NCBI RefSeq assembly: GCF_900104385.1
Contig: NZ_FNJA01000006.1
Coordinates: 310,001-374,000, forward strand
Source of the DNA: Rhodoferax sp. OV413
Lineage (GTDB): Bacteria > Pseudomonadota > Gammaproteobacteria > Burkholderiales > Burkholderiaceae_C
Reading direction: 5' to 3'
DNA: 64,000 nt
The notes beneath the pieces were generated by a model. That model worked only from the letters and a program-made list of their open reading frames with translations, had not been told where the DNA came from and did no database searches. Shown here piece after piece: positions 17,177 through 25,933 of the stretch; within the stretch, counting starts at the first letter, position 1; each line of letters opens with the position of its first letter. A program made the translations under genes and the position numbers.

Positions 17177-17914
17177 CTAGGATGGCGTTTGGCCGTGGGC
17201 GGATGGACGGGCGTCGCGCACCGCACGGGCCAAGGCCAGGCCTGCGGGAATGCCGTGCAGACCCTGGCCCAGATGGGCAATGCATACCTGGGCCGCTGCT
17301 GCGCCATACCCGCATCCGCCCAGGCCATCGGTGATGGCCACCCAGGGGATGCCGATGCGCTGGGCCATGCCTACGGGGTTGAAGTCGCTCCCAGGATCGG
17401 ACAGCAGTGCGACAGAGAGCAGCACATCGCACTCCCTAGCTGCCCACGGGTTCGCAGGCGAGTCCATGGGGGTATGCATCCACTGCACGGTCAAGCCTGC
17501 TACGCGCAGCATATCGGCATAGCAATGCGCGATTTGCGCGGTCTGTGGCGCCGCATGCATCCAAACTGTGCGGGCCTGCTGCAGCAAATGCACCGCGCGG
17601 CTGTATGCGTCGCCATGTTCCTCGGCTTCCTGCACTGGAGGGGGCTCCGGCGCGCTGGTGGGCGCTCTCCCTGCATCGGTCAAGAATGCCATCTTGAAGT
17701 CGAGAAAGCCCCGAAACCCGTAGCGCTTGGCGAGCCGCACCACGGTGACGGGTTGCGTTTCGCACCGCTGCGCCACGTCCTGGATGCGGCACAGATGCAG
17801 GTGCCGCGCATGCTGGAGGCAATAGGTTGCCACCTGCTTCAGCTTGGGGCTCAAGCTGGGCAGGTTGCCTTGGATGCGCGCCTCCAGGACGGAGGCGGGA
17901 GAGCCGGTCAACAT
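17177..17914 (-). CDS. RpiR/MurR family transcriptional regulator
   Basis: This 245-residue protein has an N-terminal RpiR helix-turn-helix (about residues 15-90: LSPKLKQVATYCLQHARHL, then TQPVTVVRLAKRYGFRGFLD) and a C-terminal SIS sugar-phosphate isomerase fold (about 110-245, with DVLLSVALLSDPGSDF and WVAITDGLG). SIS domains sense phosphosugars or related polyols. It is the last gene of the Moc-like minus-strand operon, 21 bases after the inositol-dehydrogenase-like gene, and probably senses an intermediate of that pathway. Confidence 0.85.
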   Translation of the reverse strand: MLTGSPASVLEARIQGNLPSLSPKLKQVATYCLQHARHLHLCRIQDVAQRCETQPVTVVRLAKRYGFRGFLDFKMAFLTDAGRAPTSAPEPPPVQEAEEHGDAYSRAVHLLQQARTVWMHAAPQTAQIAHCYADMLRVAGLTVQWMHTPMDSPANPWAARECDVLLSVALLSDPGSDFNPVGMAQRIGIPWVAITDGLGGCGYGAAAAQVCIAHLGQGLHGIPAGLALARAVRDARPSAHGQTPS

Positions 17915-17935
17915 GGCGGTCGGGGCTACGGTGGC

Positions 17936-18946
17936 TTATGCCAGGACGGGTTTTCCGTCTTTCAGCGTGACCGGCTTGCCCTGCTTGGCGGACAGCGTGG
18001 CGGCTTCGGCCACAGCCAGGGCGTTGATGCCGTCTTTCAGTGTGACGGGCAAGGCGCTGCCCGACTCCAGGGCGGCGATGAAAGCAGTCCATTCGGCGGC
18101 ATAGGCACGCATATAGCGCTCCAGAAAGAAGAACTCAGGCTTGGCGCTGACGGCACCACCGGTGGTGACTTTGGTGACGGTGTTTTCCAGCACATTGTTG
18201 GCCGTCAACAGGCCTTCCGAGCCCAGCAGTTCCACGCGTTGGTCATAGCCGTAGACGGCGCGGCGGCTGTTCTTGATGACGGCGATGCGGCCATCGGCAT
18301 AGCGCAGGGTGATGACGGCGGTATCCACGTCGCCGGCCTCGCCGATGGCCGGGTCCACGATGCTGGAGGCAATCGCCGACACGGTTTCTGGCAGGCCGCC
18401 AAACAGCCAGCAGGCCATGTCGAAGTCATGGATGGCCATGTCGCGGAACAGCCCGCCGGATACCTTGATGTACGACACCGGCGGCGGCGCGGGGTCGAAC
18501 GAGGTGATGGACAGCAGCTCGCCCTTGCCGATTTCACCGGCATCCAGTGCGCGCTTGAGGGCGGCAAACTGGGGGTCGAAGCGGCGGTTGAAGCCGATCA
18601 TCACGGGCTTGCCGCTGTCTTTGACGGCCTCCTGGCAGGCCAGGGCGCGGTACAGGTCCAGGTCGACCGGCTTTTCGCAGAGCACGGCTTTGCCCGCTGC
18701 GGTAGCGGCTTCGATCAGGTTGGCGTGGGTGTCGGTGGAGGTGGCGATCAGCACCGCGTCAATCGATGGGTCGTTCAGGATGTCTTGCGTGCTGCGGGCC
18801 ACGGCGCCACAGGTAGCGGCCAGCTTCTCTGCCGACGGCATGTGCACGTCGGATATAGCTACGAGCTGGCACAAGGGGTGGCTGGTGATGCTTTGGGCGT
18901 GCACATTGCCGATGCGGCCTGCGCCGAGAAGACCAATTTTGAACAT
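17936..18946 (-). CDS. Gfo/Idh/MocA oxidoreductase, inositol 2-dehydrogenase-like (MocA/IolG-like)
   Basis: This 336-residue enzyme has the NAD-binding GLLGAGRIGNVHA, the family signature VLCEKPVDLDL with catalytic Lys, and the active-site segment GGLFRDMAIHDFDMACWLFG with Asp and His. It would oxidise a cyclitol such as myo- or scyllo-inositol to the ketone. The founding MocA acts in rhizopine catabolism in Sinorhizobium meliloti. Here it sits after the MocC-position isomerase gene and before the RpiR gene. The mocDE-like neighbours favour a modified inositol over plain myo-inositol, since no iolBCDE genes are present. Confidence 0.9.
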   Translation of the reverse strand: MFKIGLLGAGRIGNVHAQSITSHPLCQLVAISDVHMPSAEKLAATCGAVARSTQDILNDPSIDAVLIATSTDTHANLIEAATAAGKAVLCEKPVDLDLYRALACQEAVKDSGKPVMIGFNRRFDPQFAALKRALDAGEIGKGELLSITSFDPAPPPVSYIKVSGGLFRDMAIHDFDMACWLFGGLPETVSAIASSIVDPAIGEAGDVDTAVITLRYADGRIAVIKNSRRAVYGYDQRVELLGSEGLLTANNVLENTVTKVTTGGAVSAKPEFFFLERYMRAYAAEWTAFIAALESGSALPVTLKDGINALAVAEAATLSAKQGKPVTLKDGKPVLA

Positions 18947-18991
18947 GGAGATTCCTTGAAAAGTAAGGGAGGGTTGGGGTGAAAAACGGAT

Positions 18992-19780
18992 TCAGGCGGG
19001 CAGGGTGAAGGCCGCCCGGAAGGACTCCAAAGCCGCCTCAGGGTCGCCCGAGGCAAAGGCTTCCATGCCCACCGGGCCGCGGTAACCCATGGCGTGCAGC
19101 GCGCGGGCAATGCCGGGGTAGTTGATTTCGCCGGTGCCGGGCTCCATGCGGCCGGGCACGTCGGCCACCTGCACTTCGCCAATCCAGGGCAGGCAGGCCT
19201 TGCACAGCTCGATCAGATTGCCTTCGCCAATTTGTGCGTGGTACAGATCCAGATTCAGGCGCAGGCGCGGATGGTTCACTGCCGAGACCAGGGCCAGGGT
19301 GTCTTCAGCCCGGCCGAAGGGAACGCCGGGGTGGTCCACGGGCAGGTTCAGGTTTTCCAGCGTAAAGGTCACGCCTTCTTCATCCGCCAGGTCGGCGATG
19401 CGGGCCAGGGTGTCACGGGCCTTGAGCCACATGGCACCGGTGGTGACCTCAACAGGCGTGACGGGCAGGCCGTCGTCGCCCAGGCCGGTGCCGTGCAGGT
19501 TCAGCCGGGCTACGCCCAGGCGCTTGCCGACTTGGGCGGTCTCGCGGGCGGTGCGCAGCAGCTCGGCAGCGCCCTCGTCGTCGGTCAGGCGACCGCGCAG
19601 GTAGCCGTTCATGATGGAGAAGGTGGCGCCGGATTTCTCCAGCTGGGCCAGGTCGTGCTCGGGCCAGTTCCAAAGGCCCACCTGGAAGCCCATTTCGGTG
19701 AGGCGCTGGACGCGCCATTGCATGGGTTTGTCGCGCCACAGCATTTCGGCGCAGGCGGCGAGGGTAAAAGCGTTTGTCAT
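18992..19780 (-). CDS. TIM-barrel isomerase, hydroxypyruvate isomerase-like (MocC position)
   Basis: This 262-residue AP-endonuclease-2-type TIM barrel resembles Hyi/OtnI: metal ligands are expected at the Glu of TFTLENLNLP (about residue 142), the Asp of LNLDLYHAQIGEG (about 177-180), the His of the same segment and the Glu of VGMEAF. The motif GRMEPGTGEINYPGI is typical of hydroxypyruvate isomerase-like proteins. MocC of rhizobia is also a TIM barrel of this superfamily. It would isomerise or dehydrate the keto-cyclitol or a cleaved product. Gap of 5 bases to the ferredoxin gene upstream. Confidence 0.8.
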   Translation of the reverse strand: MTNAFTLAACAEMLWRDKPMQWRVQRLTEMGFQVGLWNWPEHDLAQLEKSGATFSIMNGYLRGRLTDDEGAAELLRTARETAQVGKRLGVARLNLHGTGLGDDGLPVTPVEVTTGAMWLKARDTLARIADLADEEGVTFTLENLNLPVDHPGVPFGRAEDTLALVSAVNHPRLRLNLDLYHAQIGEGNLIELCKACLPWIGEVQVADVPGRMEPGTGEINYPGIARALHAMGYRGPVGMEAFASGDPEAALESFRAAFTLPA

Positions 19781-19785
19781 GGTGG

Positions 19786-20097
19786 TCAGACTTCTATGTG
19801 GATGCGGCCGTTTTCGACCTTGGTTGGAAAGGTTTTGAGGTTGATGCAGGCCGGGGAGCGGCGGGCTTCTCCGGTGCGGTAGTCAAAGGCGCCGCTGTGC
19901 TTGGGGCACTCGACTTCATGGTCCATGACCAGGCCGTCGGCGAGGTGCACGTTCTCGTGGGTGCAGAGCCCGGCAGTGCAGTAATACCGGTCGTCCGGGC
20001 TGCGGAAGATGGCGAAGGTTTTGGCGGCGTGGTCGAAGCGGATGGCTTCTTCGGGCTCCACATCGTTCACGGCGCAGGCATTGATCCATTCGGGCAT
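19786..20097 (-). CDS. MocE-family Rieske 2Fe-2S ferredoxin
   Basis: This 103-residue soluble Rieske protein has both cluster motifs: CTHE (with preceding AGLCTHENVHLADG) and CPKHSG, giving the Cys-X-His and Cys-X2-His ligands. The ending SPACINLKTFPTKVENGRI matches the MocE family. It would pass electrons to the adjacent membrane hydroxylase. I chose MPEWINAC at 20097 because the family starts there; the frame is open 42 bases further up, into the hydroxylase gene. No matching reductase gene is seen nearby. Confidence 0.85.
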   Translation of the reverse strand: MPEWINACAVNDVEPEEAIRFDHAAKTFAIFRSPDDRYYCTAGLCTHENVHLADGLVMDHEVECPKHSGAFDYRTGEARRSPACINLKTFPTKVENGRIHIEV

Positions 20098-20116
20098 AGG
20101 AGTGGTCTTTAAAGAT

Positions 20117-21133
20117 TTAAGTGGAAGGCGTTTCTGCATTCATCCGGGCGCGCTTCTTGTCAAAGCGGGCCTGCATGCGGGCTTCGCCTGCAGGTGAACC
20201 GTCGTGCCAGGTGCCGAACAGCATGTCCAGCGGCACGAGCTGGTCGCCGCCGTAATTCACCTCGAAGTACTTGTGGTGCAGGTAGTGCGCATAGGCCGAG
20301 CTGTCAAACGCCACGCCATCTGACACTTCGACCTTGTCGAAGCCAATGTGGCCATTGAGTGCGCCGAATCCCGCGATGTGCAGCTGGAACAGCGCCACGA
20401 TGGGGTTGGACGGAATCACCAGATGCCACAGCGCCACCGCGTGGTACAGAAAGGCCTCTACCGGATGCATGGACAGCGAGGACCAGGGCGTGGGATTGAC
20501 CGAGTTGTGGTGGATGGCGTGCACCCACTTGTAGCCCAGGCGGGTATGCATGGCCCAGTGGATGAAGAAGAAGTGCGTCTCGTGGATCACCGGGGCCAGC
20601 AGCACCAGGGCCACCAGCCAGTAGGGGTTGTCTGCCCACGCCAGCCAGGGCACGTAACCGTTGGCGAAGCACCACAGAAACAGCACTTCCACCACGGTCC
20701 ACAGCGGGATGGAGACGAAAAAGCTGCGCAGGGAATTGTCGATGTTCTGACTCTTGAACCAGAACACGTCCGAGGGCTGGTCGGCCGGGAATTTGCCGTT
20801 GAACTTGAATGCCGAGCCTTGGCGGCGGCGCATATACAGCTGGTATTCAAAAGCGCCGTACAGCACGAACACGGCGGCTGCATTTACGGCATACAGCCAC
20901 AGCGCCCAGCCCCAGCCCAAGGTTTTCATGGTCTCCACATCCGGCACCACGGCATACCAGTACAGCAGGGCGCTGGCCATGTGCAAGGCGTTCCAGGGCC
21001 AGACGTAAGACACCAGCCAGCGCAGGATCTTGCCCAGGTTGAAGGGCCGCACCCAGAGGGGGGCTGGCTCCAGCGCCTGGTACGGGGCCCAGTCGCCACG
21101 TTTATTGCGTTTGCCGTATTGCGAGTCGTCCAT
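20117..21133 (-). CDS. membrane di-iron hydroxylase, sterol desaturase family (MocD-like)
   Basis: This 338-residue integral membrane protein has four to five hydrophobic segments and the histidine clusters of the fatty-acid hydroxylase family: HETHFFFIHWAMH (about residues 185-197), HAIHHN (about 207-212), and HYLHHKYFE (about 290). These bind two irons for O2-dependent hydroxylation. In rhizobia MocD with MocE is needed to turn 3-O-methyl-scyllo-inosamine into scyllo-inosamine, i.e. oxidative demethylation. It is the first gene of the minus operon, 45 bases after the LacI-type operator. A lipid substrate cannot be excluded from sequence. Confidence 0.82.
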   Translation of the reverse strand: MDDSQYGKRNKRGDWAPYQALEPAPLWVRPFNLGKILRWLVSYVWPWNALHMASALLYWYAVVPDVETMKTLGWGWALWLYAVNAAAVFVLYGAFEYQLYMRRRQGSAFKFNGKFPADQPSDVFWFKSQNIDNSLRSFFVSIPLWTVVEVLFLWCFANGYVPWLAWADNPYWLVALVLLAPVIHETHFFFIHWAMHTRLGYKWVHAIHHNSVNPTPWSSLSMHPVEAFLYHAVALWHLVIPSNPIVALFQLHIAGFGALNGHIGFDKVEVSDGVAFDSSAYAHYLHHKYFEVNYGGDQLVPLDMLFGTWHDGSPAGEARMQARFDKKRARMNAETPST

Positions 21134-21177
21134 AGCGATTCCTAAAGTTTGTTGGGTTCAACCGTTACATCGGTGAA

Positions 21178-21193
21178 ATGCAACCGGGTGCAT
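21178..21193. promoter_or_regulatory. LacI-family operator before the Moc-like operon
   Basis: ATGCAACCGGGTGCAT is a near-perfect 16-bp palindrome (7 of 8 pairs, centre CG step), as LacI-family operators usually are. It lies 45 bases upstream of the hydroxylase start and next to the LacI gene. A copy differing by one base is at 22848-22863 before the transporter genes. Confidence 0.75.
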
Positions 21194-21332
21194 ATCTTGA
21201 GAAAATTTTTTTGAAAATTTCTTGAAATATATTTTTTATGAAGTATTTTTCAGAATTAATTTTCTAATGATGTGATCATCGCACAATGAAAATAGAATTT
21301 TTATAAGGGTTTTCGATAGATTTTTAGATGAT

Positions 21333-21348
21333 TTGCTCTCGGGTGCAA
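21333..21348. promoter_or_regulatory. LacI-family operator, weaker copy
   Basis: TTGCTCTCGGGTGCAA keeps the half-site CGGGTGCAA and has 6 of 8 symmetric pairs. It lies 157 bases before the LacI start, where it could serve autoregulation or looping with the copy at 21178. Confidence 0.45.
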
Positions 21349-21504
21349 AATGTTGTGAAATAGATGCAGTTTTGGCGTGCAGAGCCAGCCCTGTAAGCGC
21401 GGGGTGCCAACTTGGTACTATGGTTTGGGCCATCGCCGGGAGCGGTGTAGACAAAGTTGCCGCTAAATTGCGGCTCATAGCCCCGGCCAGATGCAAGCAA
21501 GACC

Positions 21505-22521
21505 ATGAACCAAGACAATTCGAACAAGAAAGTCACGGCGCGCGACGTAGCCGTTCGCGCCGGTACCTCCAAGTGGACCGTGTCCCGCGCGTTCACGGAC
21601 GGGGCCTCGATCGCTCCCGAGGTGCGCGACCGTATCCGGGCCCTGGCCACCGAGATGGGCTATTCGCCCAATCTCCTGGCTAGAAGCCTGTCCACCCGCA
21701 GCACGGGCTTGATCGCCCTGGTGGCAGATGAGCTGGCCAACCCGAACCAGCTCTACTCCTTGAACGAGGCCACCCGGCAGCTGCAGGCGCGGGGGCTCAG
21801 CACTTTGCTGCTCAATACCAGCCCCGAGTACCGGCCTGCGATTGCACTGCGCCTGGCGGACCAGTTCCAGGTGGACGGCATCATGTTCTTGGGTACCACC
21901 TTGACGCATGAGCTGATCGAGTTGGCGCAGCGCATCAAACACATCCCTTTGGTCGTCCTCCTGCGCAACAGCGGTCAGGCGGACATTCCTTTCGTCAGCA
22001 CCGATGGCTATGCCGCGGGTGCAGAGATTGCGGATCTGTTTCTGGCGCAGGGTTACCGGCGCATCGGCTACATGGCGGGCCCCATGTCCGAGCGCACCGA
22101 GCTGCGGCGCATGGAGGGCTTCAGGGATCGGCTCAGCGCCTGTGGCATTGCTTTGACCACGGTGATGGAAACCGCGCACTACCGCCGCGAGCAGGGCATG
22201 CACGCGCTGCAGCGCTATCTGGCCGCCACACCCCGGGAATCGCGCCTGGAAGCGCTGTTCTGTGAAAACGACATTCTGGCGATTGGCGCCATGGACGCAC
22301 TGGTCGCCGCGAATGCCCAGCGCAAGATCGCCATCGTCGGCTTTGACGATATCGAGATGGCAGCTTCACCCAGCTACGAGCTCACCACCTTTCGCCAGCC
22401 GGTCGAATACCTGGTGGGCGAAGCCATCCGCTTGATCGTGGAGCCCGGCAGTGCGTCGTCCAGGGCGCTGATGGCCCCTGGTTCGCTTGTGCTGCGGGCC
22501 TCGCACCGGCGCCAGGACTGA
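21505..22521 (+). CDS. LacI family transcriptional regulator of the Moc-like cluster
   Basis: This 338-residue repressor has the N-terminal LacI helix-turn-helix (KVTARDVAVRAGTSKWTVSR, then AFTDGASIAPEVRDRIRALA) and hinge (YSPNLLARSLSTRSTGLIAL), followed by a periplasmic-binding-fold sensor domain. It lies between the minus catabolic operon and the plus transporter operon, and 16-bp operator copies occur in front of both. A role as the common repressor, released by a sugar or cyclitol inducer, is strongly suggested. The ligand itself cannot be read from sequence. Confidence 0.9.
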   Translation: MNQDNSNKKVTARDVAVRAGTSKWTVSRAFTDGASIAPEVRDRIRALATEMGYSPNLLARSLSTRSTGLIALVADELANPNQLYSLNEATRQLQARGLSTLLLNTSPEYRPAIALRLADQFQVDGIMFLGTTLTHELIELAQRIKHIPLVVLLRNSGQADIPFVSTDGYAAGAEIADLFLAQGYRRIGYMAGPMSERTELRRMEGFRDRLSACGIALTTVMETAHYRREQGMHALQRYLAATPRESRLEALFCENDILAIGAMDALVAANAQRKIAIVGFDDIEMAASPSYELTTFRQPVEYLVGEAIRLIVEPGSASSRALMAPGSLVLRASHRRQD

Positions 22522-22604
22522 GGCCTGAGGCGCAAGGCCCGCACCTGCGTGGCTGGAGGAGTCGCAGCGCATCCAATGAACCGACCCGAGGGGTAAACAG
22601 GTAA

Positions 22605-22622
22605 ATTGTGATCGGGTGCAAT
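22605..22622. promoter_or_regulatory. LacI-family operator, half-conserved copy
   Basis: ATTGTGATCGGGTGCAAT retains the right half CGGGTGCAA exactly as in the other sites but only about 5 of 9 symmetric pairs. It lies between the end of the LacI gene and the strong site at 22848. Confidence 0.35.
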
Positions 22623-22847
22623 CCCTCGGGGCTGTAGTTCTTGAAAAGCGGGATTCCATACGCTGGAACTCTCTGTACATCACAGCCGTTCTCGGCTGGC
22701 AGATGACCATGCAATTCCTCTTGTTTTTCAAAGATCTTTGATTTGAAAGGATTTTTTGGAAATTTAAGTTTTTTACTGCAGCGTTTGGAATTTTATTTCC
22801 ACGGGGAAACACCTATGACTGCGCAATGGGTTCTTGGCTACAGTGCA

Positions 22848-22863
22848 TTGCACCCGGTTGCAT
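22848..22863. promoter_or_regulatory. LacI-family operator before the transporter operon
   Basis: TTGCACCCGGTTGCAT read on the other strand is ATGCAACCGGGTGCAA, one base different from the site at 21178. It lies 123 bases upstream of the receptor start. This ties the transporter to the same regulator as the catabolic operon. Confidence 0.75.
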
Positions 22864-22986
22864 TTCGCAAGAAGTAGCAAAAAATGTTCTGGCCCTGTCC
22901 AACAGGCCACTGGAGCGGCCTGGAGCGCAGCCGGTGCGATCCACACAGGTTTTTGACATCCACATGAGACACAAGAGGAGATAGAT

Positions 22987-23967
22987 ATGCAATCAGTGAA
23001 ACGCATCCTGACGATGGCGGCCGTGGCTGCCAGCATCGCAGCCATGGCCACAACTGCGATGGCCGCTGGCCCCAAGATCTTCGTGATCGGCGGCAAGGCC
23101 GACGATCCGTTCTGGTCGCGTGTCAAGAAGGGGGCGGATGATGCTGCACTGGCCGTCAAGGCTGCAGGCGGCACGGTGACCTGGCTCGGACCACAGACCT
23201 ACGACAACCTCGGCCCCGATGCGGCCAAATTGATCCGCTCTGCCCTGAGCCAGAAGCCAGATGCCATCGTCGGCCCTGACTGGGTGCCCGAAGCCATGGA
23301 CGCCGCGTTCAAGGAGGTGGTGGCCGCCGGTGTGCCGCTGATCATCTACAACTCGGGTGGCATGGAGGCCGCCAAGCGCCTGGGCGCCCAGAACTATGTG
23401 GGCAGCGAGGAGTACGTGGCGGGTTTTGGTGGCGGCGAGTACTTTGCCAGCCACGGCGCCAAGTATGTTCTGTGCGTCAATACGCAGCCGGGATCGACCA
23501 ACCAGGAGTCGCGCTGCAAAGGCGTTGCTGACGGCATGGCAAAGGGGGGTGGAAAGAGCGTCCAGTTGCCTTTGCCTTCCTCGGCCTTTGGTAACCCCAC
23601 CGCCGTCGCACAGGCGATCAAGGCCGCCCTGCAAAAGGATACCGCTGTGGACGGCATCATCACGATCGGTGCCAACGATGCCAATAGCGCCGCCAATGGC
23701 ATCAGCCAGGGAGGCTTTGGCAAGCGCGTGAAGTTGGGCACCTTCGACATCGATCCGACCAACCTCAAGCGCATCAAGGACGGCACGCAACTCTTCTGCA
23801 TCGACCAGCAGCCCTACTTGCAAGGCTACCTGGCCGTGTCCATGCTCAACGCTTATGTGCAATACGGCCTGAAAGTGCCGACCGCGCCTATTCTGACGGG
23901 CCCTGGAATCGTCGACGCCTCCAACGTGGATGCGACCGTCGCGGGCGCAGCTGCCGGCGCTCGCTGA
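22987..23967 (+). CDS. sugar/cyclitol ABC transporter substrate-binding protein (MocB/FrcB-like)
   Basis: This 326-residue periplasmic receptor has a signal peptide (cut near TAMAAGPK) and the Peripla_BP_4 pattern of ribose/inositol/rhizopine-type receptors: IFVIGGKADDPFWSRVKKGA at the start, LVPx-free DAIVGPDWVPEAMDAAF, and ITIGANDANSAANGI, with the hinge segment LFCIDQQPYLQGYLAV near the end. MocB of rhizobia belongs here. GAGGAGATAG lies just upstream as ribosome site. It leads the transporter operon and is preceded by the 16-bp operator. Confidence 0.88.
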   Translation: MQSVKRILTMAAVAASIAAMATTAMAAGPKIFVIGGKADDPFWSRVKKGADDAALAVKAAGGTVTWLGPQTYDNLGPDAAKLIRSALSQKPDAIVGPDWVPEAMDAAFKEVVAAGVPLIIYNSGGMEAAKRLGAQNYVGSEEYVAGFGGGEYFASHGAKYVLCVNTQPGSTNQESRCKGVADGMAKGGGKSVQLPLPSSAFGNPTAVAQAIKAALQKDTAVDGIITIGANDANSAANGISQGGFGKRVKLGTFDIDPTNLKRIKDGTQLFCIDQQPYLQGYLAVSMLNAYVQYGLKVPTAPILTGPGIVDASNVDATVAGAAAGAR

Positions 23968-24013
23968 CCGGCATACGGCGGGGCGCGGCCGATGAGCGGC
24001 ATCCCGCTACCCA

Positions 24014-24039
24014 AGCGCCCCTGGCCGATCTCGGGCGCT
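24014..24039 (+). promoter_or_regulatory. intercistronic stem-loop after the receptor gene
   Basis: AGCGCCC (24014-24020) pairs with GGGCGCT (24033-24039). It lies in the 92-base gap between receptor and permease, a common place for hairpins that protect or attenuate the mRNA so that the receptor is made in excess. No T run follows, so it is not a clear terminator. Confidence 0.4.
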
Positions 24040-24059
24040 CGGGTGCCCACTCTTTTTCC

Positions 24060-25154
24060 ATGCATACATCGAGCCCCATCATGAACTCGCAAATCCATAT
24101 CTCAGCGCCCGCCGGCAGCAAGCCGGACGTGAGCGCAGGCCGCACGCCGTTTTCCTTCGGTGCGCTGCTACGCCGTCCGGAAACCGGATCCTTCATAGGA
24201 TTGGTTGCCGTGTTTGTCTTTTTCTCCATCTTTGGTGGGGAGACATTTCTTTCCGCCGGTGGTGCAGCCAGTTGGCTGAACATCGCCGCCGAGCTGGGCA
24301 TCATTGCCTTGCCGATTGGCCTCCTGATGATCGCGGGTCAGCTGGACCTGTCGATAGGCAGCGTGATCCCGGCCAGTTCGATGACCATCGCCATCGTCTC
24401 CGGCCACTACGGCCTGCCCATGCCCGTGGGCATTGCTGCCGCATTGGGCCTGGGCCTGGGCATCGGCTTCCTCAACGGCTACCTGATCATCCGCACCGAT
24501 CTGCCGTCGTTCGTGGTGACTCTGGCCACCTTGTTTGCCGTGGCGGGTTTGACCCTGGGCTTGTCGGTCATCCTGGCGGGCAGCACCAGTGTGGCGCTGG
24601 AAAGCAGTCCGGTCTACAAAATGGTTTTCGGCGATTTCATCGACGGCAAATTTGAAGTCATTTTGCTGTGGTGGGTAGCCGCCATCGCCTTGGTCAGCTA
24701 CATACTGAGCCACTCCAAATACGGCAACTGGATACTGGCGCTCGGCGGCGACAAGGTCAGTGCGCGCAATGCCGGCATCCCTACCGACAAGCTCAATATC
24801 GCGCTGTACATGGCCAGTGGCTTCTGCGCGGCTTTCGTAGGCATGTGTCAGGCCATCCTCTACAACAGTGCCCAAGTCTCAGCCGGGCAGTCCTTCATCT
24901 TCAACTCCATCATTGCGGTGGTCATCGGCGGTGTTTTCCTCACCGGCGGTTATGGCTCGGTGCTGGGCATCGTGCTGGGCACGGTGACCTTTGCCATCGT
25001 CAACCAAGGCATCTATTACACCGGTTTCGATGCCAACTGGGCCAGCCTGATCATTGGTGTTCTCCTCCTGGCGGCCGTGCTCCTCAACAACACCTTCCGC
25101 ACCATGGCACTGACCCACTCTGCACCCAGCGCTAAGAAAAAGGCAAGCAAATGA
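24060..25154 (+). CDS. sugar ABC transporter permease (FrcC/RbsC-like)
   Basis: This 364-residue permease has about eight to ten membrane segments and the BPD_transp_2 signature: LPIGLLMIAGQLDLSIGSVI, LGLGIGFLNGYLIIRTDLP, and LALGGDKVSARNAGIPTDKL as the cytoplasmic coupling loop. It has the length of FrcC (about 360). It forms the channel for the receptor upstream. Start is uncertain: MHTSS at 24060 or MNSQIH at 24081; neither has a clear ribosome site. It overlaps the ATPase gene by 4 bases (ATGA). Confidence 0.9.
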   Translation: MHTSSPIMNSQIHISAPAGSKPDVSAGRTPFSFGALLRRPETGSFIGLVAVFVFFSIFGGETFLSAGGAASWLNIAAELGIIALPIGLLMIAGQLDLSIGSVIPASSMTIAIVSGHYGLPMPVGIAAALGLGLGIGFLNGYLIIRTDLPSFVVTLATLFAVAGLTLGLSVILAGSTSVALESSPVYKMVFGDFIDGKFEVILLWWVAAIALVSYILSHSKYGNWILALGGDKVSARNAGIPTDKLNIALYMASGFCAAFVGMCQAILYNSAQVSAGQSFIFNSIIAVVIGGVFLTGGYGSVLGIVLGTVTFAIVNQGIYYTGFDANWASLIIGVLLLAAVLLNNTFRTMALTHSAPSAKKKASK

Positions 25155-25933
25155 CCACCCCTCTGCTGCAACTAAAGGGCGTAAACAAGTCCTTCGGCCC
25201 CATCGACGTCCTACACGATATTTCTCTGGAGGTGCATGCGGGCGAGGTGCTGTGCTTGCTGGGCGACAACGGCGCCGGAAAATCCACCTTGATCCGGCTG
25301 CTGTCCGGCGTGCACAAGCCAACCTCCGGTGAAATGTGGATGAATGGCAAACCGGTGCTGTTTGAGAATCCGCGCGAGGCCAGCAACCATGGCATTGCCA
25401 CCGTGCACCAGTTCGGCGGCACGTTTCCGCTGATGAGCATTGGGCGATCCTTCTTTGTGGGGGCGGAGCCTACCAAGCGCTGGGGCCCGTTCGAAGTCTT
25501 CGACCGCGACTATGCGAACGAGGTCGCCGTGCGGGAGATGCGCGAGTTGGGCATCACCCGCATCAACGACGGTAACCGGCTGGTGGGTGGGCTTTCCGGC
25601 GGGGAGCGCCAGGCGCTGGCCATCGCACGCGCCGTGCACTTCGGTGCCAATGTGCTGATTCTGGACGAGCCCACAGCAGCGCTCGGCGTGAAGGAAGCCG
25701 CCCATGTGCTGCGGATTGTTCTGCAAGCGCGCAAGAAGGGCATCGCTGTCATCTTCATCACCCACCAGGTGATGCATGCCATGACCGTGGGCGACCACTT
25801 TGCGGTGCTGATCCGCGGCGCCAAAGCGGCCGACTTCCGCAAAGGTGAGAAATCCCGCGAGGAAATCACCGACCTCATGGCCGGAGGGGAAGCCATGGCC
25901 GGACTGGAGGCCGAGATCGAAAGCCATCTGTAG
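25151..25933 (+). CDS. sugar ABC transporter ATP-binding protein (single-domain, FrcA-like)
   Basis: This 260-residue ATPase has Walker A (GDNGAGKSTL), signature LSGGERQALA, Walker B (VLILDEPTAALG) and the switch His (FITHQVMHA). Most sugar importers of this kind have a double 500-residue ATPase; the single-domain form matches FrcA and some cyclitol systems, so two copies would work as a dimer. The VHQFGGTFPLMSIGRSFFVG stretch is typical of FrcA-like proteins. It is the last gene of the transporter operon. Confidence 0.9.
   Translation: MTTPLLQLKGVNKSFGPIDVLHDISLEVHAGEVLCLLGDNGAGKSTLIRLLSGVHKPTSGEMWMNGKPVLFENPREASNHGIATVHQFGGTFPLMSIGRSFFVGAEPTKRWGPFEVFDRDYANEVAVREMRELGITRINDGNRLVGGLSGGERQALAIARAVHFGANVLILDEPTAALGVKEAAHVLRIVLQARKKGIAVIFITHQVMHAMTVGDHFAVLIRGAKAADFRKGEKSREEITDLMAGGEAMAGLEAEIESHL

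Follow-up and report, generated by a model that had tools for sequence, protein, structure and literature searches.

Which substrate does a gene set that resembles the rhizopine genes of rhizobia serve in a bacterium that is not a rhizobium? The question is raised by a nine-gene cluster of Rhodoferax sp. OV413 at positions 17177-25933 of the window, that is, of the whole 64 kb stretch of DNA analysed (contig NZ_FNJA01000006.1). An earlier annotation made from the letters alone (the sequence-only reading) had taken this cluster for a rhizopine-type (Moc) catabolic set. Our analysis points, with a probability of roughly 70%, to a LacI-regulated, self-contained cassette for a methylated cyclitol. 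The likeliest substrate is an O-methyl-inositol (of the kind of pinitol, ononitol or sequoyitol), which would be imported, demethylated by ferredoxin-driven hydroxylation, oxidized by IolG and passed into the inositol (iol) pathway. A substrate of this kind had also been suggested by the sequence-only reading, and is supported by PurU and FolD genes in relatives, by iolDEB beside the nearest relative, by IolG itself and by an inositol-type receptor. Legumes and conifers are rich in methylated inositols such as pinitol; a title-level search of the open-licence literature returned no gene set for their use by bacteria and no description of this cluster.

Genes of the cluster

All nine open reading frames listed by the sequence-only reading were found at the coordinates it gave, and they form two divergent blocks: the RpiR, IolG, TIM-barrel, MocE and hydroxylase genes on the minus strand and the LacI, receptor, permease and ATPase genes on the plus strand (Table 1). 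The dehydrogenase scored 426.1 bits against TIGR04380, the IolG equivalog (cut-off 355). Its best solved relative is 4hkt, 'Inositol 2-dehydrogenase', and K92, D169 and H173, which we take to be the catalytic residues, are conserved in at least 97% of 43 relatives. The ferredoxin, with 173.5 bits against TIGR02377 (MocE), lies above the curated cut-off of 136.15, so that its earlier assignment to the MocE family stands; the model covers residues 17-117, and the Rieske motifs are CTH at 59 and CPKH at 78. Its gene overlaps that of the hydroxylase by 23 nucleotides. Three reductase queries gave no match to a ferredoxin reductase in the window. The TIM-barrel protein reached 107.7 bits against the Hyi model (cut-off 353) and stayed under every equivalog cut-off listed; E142, D178, H181, Q204 and E240 are conserved in at least 97% of 60 relatives. 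The ATPase has what we take to be an FrcA-like layout. For the receptor, which had been called MocB, the nearest family was that of the rhizopine substrate-binding protein, NF052284, at 194 bits against a cut-off of 420, and the MocB identification was not confirmed. The best solved relative of the receptor, by sequence and by fold, was 4ru1, termed a verified myo-inositol transporter in the accessible part of a published report (PMC10747050).

The hydroxylase had been regarded as a MocD homologue, and MocD is placed among desaturase-like proteins in the accessible part of its description (PMC2593844). We compared the protein with this description and with the genome's two PF00487 proteins and rejected the MocD identity. 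It matched PF04116 (FA_hydroxylase, 'sterol desaturase family') with 63 bits against a cut-off of 31, no PF00487 match was found on the window's contig (the genome's six such matches all lie on other contigs), and hhalign gave a probability of 3.5% against the genome's own two PF00487-MocE desaturases, the PF00487 side consisting of two sequences only. The histidine motifs of the hydroxylase are HETH (184), HWAMH (192), HAIHH (205) and HYLHH (283), and their histidines are invariant in 33 aligned sequences except for H184, which is conserved in 90% or more. A search of solved structures returned no match at E <= 1 for the single sequence and, for an alignment, two matches (E 0.15 and 0.4), both to unrelated proteins. 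Two further PF04116 genes are present in the genome, one 34% identical over 171 residues and the other without a significant match.

Table 1. Genes and candidate LacI sites of the cluster, in window positions.
Feature	Position	Strand	Basis
RpiR-type regulator	17177..17914	-	HTH_6, Pfam 38.7 bits vs 28.3
IolG, inositol 2-dehydrogenase (Gfo/Idh/MocA fold)	17936..18946	-	TIGR04380
TIM-barrel isomerase/epimerase, Hyi-like, proposed inosose isomerase	18992..19780	-	PF01261, 111 bits
MocE-family Rieske [2Fe-2S] ferredoxin	19786..20139	-	TIGR02377
Membrane di-iron hydroxylase, proposed methyl hydroxylase (demethylase)	20117..21133	-	PF04116
LacI operator ATGCAACCGGGTGCAT, upstream of hydroxylase block	21178..21193		exact consensus match
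LacI-operator-like site, weaker	21333..21348		1 mismatch
LacI-family regulator	21505..22521	+	LacI and Peripla_BP matches
LacI-operator-like site, weak	22606..22621		2 mismatches, one strand
LacI operator TTGCACCCGGTTGCAT, upstream of transporter block	22848..22863		exact consensus match
CUT2-type substrate-binding protein, probably binding a cyclitol	22987..23967	+	nearest model rhizopine substrate-binding protein; best solved relative 4ru1
CUT2-type permease	24060..25154	+	PF02653, 152 bits
Single-domain ABC (ATP-binding cassette) ATPase	25151..25933	+	PF00005, 108 bits

Gene neighbourhoods of hydroxylase relatives

We found 517 relatives of the hydroxylase in the genome collection and kept the best 80 as loci. 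The hydroxylase shares its Pfam family with characterized lipid enzymes, but in 75 of these 80 a receptor gene lies no more than 10 kb away, a setting unlike that of lipid genes. Partner genes were counted by tblastn over the same distance, with identity thresholds set by the analyst, in 59 of the 80 loci; the 21 with less than 9 kb of downstream or 3 kb of upstream sequence were left out, and the four plasmid-record loci L008-L011 stand outside these counts. A LacI gene was found in 58 of the 59, receptor, permease and ATPase genes in 56 each, and MocE, TIM-barrel and PanB-like genes in 52 each; IolG was present in 37 and other Gfo dehydrogenases in 3, ferredoxin reductase in 16, PurU in 15 and FolD in 6. 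The more distant PF04116 clusters L007, L010 and L011 have a LacI match that is 28-30% identical. L019, L022 and L031 differ downstream of the MocE and PanB-like genes, where they have a further hydroxylase of PF04116 type (53-57%) and, instead of IolG and its TIM barrel, a different TIM barrel and other Gfo/Idh/MocA dehydrogenases.

In eight Rhizobiaceae loci PurU is found downstream of IolG; in five others it stands with the reductase gene upstream of LacI, and L014 and L093 each have a different arrangement. At the density of the window's genome (3 copies, one partial match excluded) the chance of meeting a PurU per 20 kb is ~1%, a rough yardstick that takes no account of relatedness among the loci. 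As read from sequence starts, ~6 kb separate one of the genome's three PurU genes (L123-L125) from a gene of Rieske type and its reductase, and another PurU adjoins an FAD oxidoreductase gene with FolD near; we take these two neighbourhoods to serve the demethylation of betaine and of dimethylglycine or sarcosine. The C14 copy, which is 74% identical to the PurU of L014, appears from sequence starts to sit among ribosomal-protein genes and was therefore treated as housekeeping. As far as the accessible parts of the papers go, FolD and PurU follow an N-demethylating oxidase in nicotine catabolism (PMC6214936), and PurU sits with sarcosine oxidase genes (PMC3691474).

Links to the iol pathway were seen both in other genomes and in this one. 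In L014, the nearest relative, iolD, iolE and iolB (all above cut-off) adjoin the module with PurU and FolD, and L070 and L078 carry iolD and iolE. For comparison we used four plasmid clusters that have related receptor, permease and ATPase genes and neither hydroxylase nor ferredoxin. Two of them lie next to iolC-iolD, L139 with a receptor of 56% identity and L138 with one of 35%; L137 (37%) has a TIM-barrel gene (66%) next to IolG (52%) as well as an RpiR gene; L140 (58%) has other dehydrogenases. In the window's genome, contig C5 encodes IolC/J (1023.7 bits, cut-off 600), IolB (324, cut-off 205), IolD (886, cut-off 715), IolE (390.8, cut-off 290) and a second IolG (403 bits). The cassette is thus akin to the iol pathway (IolG, IolE, IolD, IolB, IolC/J) in its IolG above cut-off, in the iolDEB genes adjoining L014 and in the full set elsewhere in its genome, and unlike it in placing a hydroxylase and a ferredoxin ahead of that pathway.

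The C5 iol region also holds a ferredoxin reductase gene and two pairs of PF00487 desaturase and MocE genes accompanied by LacI regulators, so that the window cassette provides a third hydroxylase-ferredoxin pair, of another family. Together with the reductase the two C5 pairs, at L109:11862-15866 and L108:19107 to L109:390, form a MocDEF-like set. A cassette of this PF00487 type on a plasmid of Marivivens sp. LCG002 consists of genes for LacI, the hydroxylase, MocE (59%), a PanB-like enzyme (63%), a TIM barrel and an ABC set with iolG (51%) and iolC, and an alpha/beta hydrolase gene lies between them on the opposite strand. Locus L024 contains both types, the PF04116 module and a PF00487-type cassette with MocE, PanB-like and LacI genes (L024:18342-19391, minus strand). 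The PF00487-MocE cassettes of C5, Marivivens and L024 thus share with the window's the ferredoxin family and LacI-family regulators; the PanB-like gene of Marivivens and L024 recurs in the window's relatives, and Marivivens adds a TIM barrel, an ABC set and IolG. They differ in a hydroxylase of the other family, the 3.5% profile probability above being that against this genome's two. Clusters linked to FixV, with a 'mocD' gene, are likewise similar, in that a LacI-family regulator lies near a hydroxylase operon and a PF01261 epimerase; an inositol-derivative ligand is proposed for them in the accessible part of PMC3538637, and the likeness is drawn without regard to the family of their hydroxylase.

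The description of the set as non-rhizobial holds for the window's genome, but most of the best 80 relatives belong to Rhizobiales or Rhodobacterales; three are named as Burkholderiales (L014, L089 and L093). The hydroxylase was found in 3 of 8 genomes of the genus (its own and two other congeners, both at 96% identity), in 2 of 200 of the family (its own and G074) and, at E <= 1e-60, in 1 of 399 of the order (its own). From their identical coordinates, L013 (genome G074) and L089 very probably represent a single genome, and both were included in the receptor alignment. In the hydroxylase tree the window copy pairs with L014 (100/95), and L089 and L093 group with Mesorhizobium (100/90). The betaproteobacterial copies, four in all, are split rather than grouped together (two changes needed).

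A movable cassette with paired LacI operators

Two congener genomes carry the full set of nine genes in unchanged order and orientation between different flanks, and because gene order is kept while the flanks change we treat 17177-25933 as one cassette. Nine flanking genes of the window, used as queries, were not found around the congener cassettes (19 kb stretches) except for a weak 28% match of the enoyl-CoA-hydratase type, and the HAD phosphatase gene that borders the set in the window is distant from it in both congeners. The nine-gene set is a movable cassette. Its G+C content is 61.4%, against 64.2% for the window. Eight of its genes are 88-97% identical in the two congeners; the RpiR gene diverges more than its neighbours there, at 58%. 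A Pfam search found no match to an SIS domain in this regulator.

The sequence-only reading had further proposed that the blocks share LacI operators, and here we agree: two exact and two weaker sites occur, confined within the window to the two gaps of the cassette. Allowing up to 2 mismatches, the consensus WTGCANYCGGKTGCAW, which was itself derived from these sites, gave 7 strand-wise matches in the window, all in those gaps, against 2.83 expected by chance; 7 were reached in 1 of 100 shuffles. The exact palindromes at 21178 and 22848 are the sole exact matches in the 5.7 Mb genome. One-mismatch matches outside the window occur at three places, and a reversed control pattern gave 3 matches at the same level. 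In both congeners consensus sites precede both blocks, the letters of the 22848 site being identical, and similar palindromes lie upstream of the hydroxylase in L014, L089 and L093.

Comparison with rhizopine catabolism

Rhizopine catabolism comprises mocDEF, mocR, mocBA and mocC in the accessible part of PMC10107442, and we took the Moc anatomy from that description and from PMC5132102 (likewise in part) rather than from reference gene sequences. The cassette resembles the system of Rhizobium and Sinorhizobium in pairing a MocE-family ferredoxin with a membrane hydroxylase, in a receptor nearest to the rhizopine family and in a product expected to join the inositol pathway. Unlike that system, it has a PF04116 hydroxylase in place of the desaturase type, IolG, a LacI regulator instead of MocR, no reductase and a receptor under the cut-off. 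The ferredoxin alone passes a Moc-named family, and the dehydrogenase passes as IolG. The absence of MocR, already remarked in the sequence-only reading, was confirmed, the regulators of the cluster being LacI and RpiR. Since the hydroxylase and the receptor fail, the dehydrogenase is IolG, and MocF and MocR are absent from the cluster, the features tested do not make this a Moc system, and the proposed Moc set was not upheld. A true system for rhizopine (3-O-methyl-scyllo-inosamine) transferred into a betaproteobacterium would account for the MocE score, the nearest receptor model and the inositol pathway downstream; set against the hydroxylase family, the receptor score, the IolG equivalog, a window without ferredoxin reductase and LacI in the place of MocR, it is very unlikely. 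Judged by its gene families, the cassette would act much as the demethylating steps of rhizopine catabolism do, yet it is not a member of that system on the features tested, and 'methylated-cyclitol cassette with a PF04116 hydroxylase' is preferable to 'Moc island' as a name.

Proposed pathway and competing explanations

In the pathway that we propose, the CUT2 ABC transporter would import the methylated cyclitol. The PF04116 hydroxylase, with electrons from the MocE-type ferredoxin and a reductase encoded elsewhere (one lies near the C5 PF00487-MocE pairs), would then hydroxylate the methyl carbon, and the resulting hemiacetal would break down to free inositol and a one-carbon unit. IolG would oxidize the inositol, the TIM-barrel enzyme would isomerize the inosose, and the product would enter the IolE-IolD-IolB-IolC/J pathway, whose genes are present in the genome. 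The one-carbon unit may pass to tetrahydrofolate and on to formate via FolD and PurU, which are clustered with the module in some relatives and lie outside the cluster here. LacI probably governs both blocks through the paired operators observed. If this is true, the cassette is a candidate for methylated-inositol use that is widespread among Rhizobiales and Rhodobacterales and present in a few Burkholderiales; the annotations 'MocE family' and 'sterol desaturase' can then signal demethylation of cyclitols instead of a role in rhizopine or lipid metabolism; and the common PanB-like orphan gains a candidate function.

Several observations weigh against the demethylation pathway. The structure model of the hydroxylase is weak (predicted local distance difference test, pLDDT, 63.9). 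PurU and FolD occur in a minority of relatives and are not in the window cluster. While 40 of the 59 loci have IolG or another dehydrogenase, 19 have neither at the thresholds used, and L019, L022 and L031 have other enzymes instead of IolG and the TIM barrel, so the substrate may vary. Only 3 of the 80 loci (L014, L070 and L078) have iolD or iolE nearby, the other 77 having none within the stretch examined, and no iolC/D was seen in the stretches examined of L137 and L140. It speaks for the pathway that all host genomes searched, 43 of 43, have IolD above cut-off (44 of the 80 loci were chosen and L051 left out), against 3 of 14 control genomes, but this count has no background from non-host relatives. 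In the Marivivens cassette the permease and the ATPase reach no more than 27-33% identity, and the receptor belongs to a different type. None of the seven alphaproteobacterial loci examined showed the operator consensus. The PanB-like enzyme, finally, is missing from L089 and from the window's genome, where the only match (29% identical) is an ordinary PanB.

Other substrates were also considered. PF04116 enzymes hydroxylate C-H bonds, and a deoxy-cyclitol of the quercitol type hydroxylated directly to inositol would need the same receptor, dehydrogenase and iol links as the demethylation pathway; it leaves PurU and FolD in the relatives unexplained, and we consider it unlikely. That the substrate is an O-methyl sugar of the hexose type is suggested by the variants with other Gfo/Idh/MocA dehydrogenases (L019, L022, L031, L054 and L062). 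We regard this as highly improbable for the window, whose dehydrogenase is the IolG equivalog and whose nearest relative adjoins iolDEB. Modification of lipids or sterols by a 'sterol desaturase' is scarcely credible: its support is the Pfam family and the annotation name, while sugar-type transport genes lie within 10 kb in 56 of the 59 relatives, and an inositol-type dehydrogenase or one-carbon genes in many. On the same partners (sugar-type transport genes, inositol-type dehydrogenase, one-carbon genes) we rejected a lipid function.

The PanB-like enzyme raises a further possibility. This divergent member of the PanB superfamily nearly always accompanies the module (L017:15256-16080 and 51 other loci with enough flank). 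In the relatives its VGDSLG motif is gone, as are the DLP and KLEGG positions, which we take to be metal-binding in PanB, while the stretches aligned with AHLGL and LE.VP are retained. Its absence from the window's genome and L089 means that it is dispensable or that the window type differs. A PanB step as an obligatory part of the pathway was rejected on its absence here; given this and the motif losses in relatives, we do not call the protein a hydroxymethyltransferase. For C-methyl or hydroxymethyl cyclitols or branched sugars, a methyl on carbon would be hydroxylated, the dehydrogenase would form the adjacent ketone, and the PanB-like enzyme would move the hydroxymethyl group to tetrahydrofolate. 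The occurrence of the enzyme in 52 of 59 relatives and, with the other hydroxylase, in the Marivivens cassette fits this scheme, as does the retro-aldol logic that we presume for PanB chemistry; with the three putative metal-binding positions gone and the gene missing here, it seems quite unlikely. More speculatively, and still doubtful, PF04116 and PF00487 di-iron hydroxylases might be interchangeable heads of one MocE/PanB-like cyclitol-demethylase cassette, in which the PanB-like protein would be a novel catalyst of folate or formaldehyde handling and would remove the oxidized methyl directly from the cyclitol without free formaldehyde.

As a minor observation on the dehydrogenase family, some IolG paralogs were flagged with an internal TAG.

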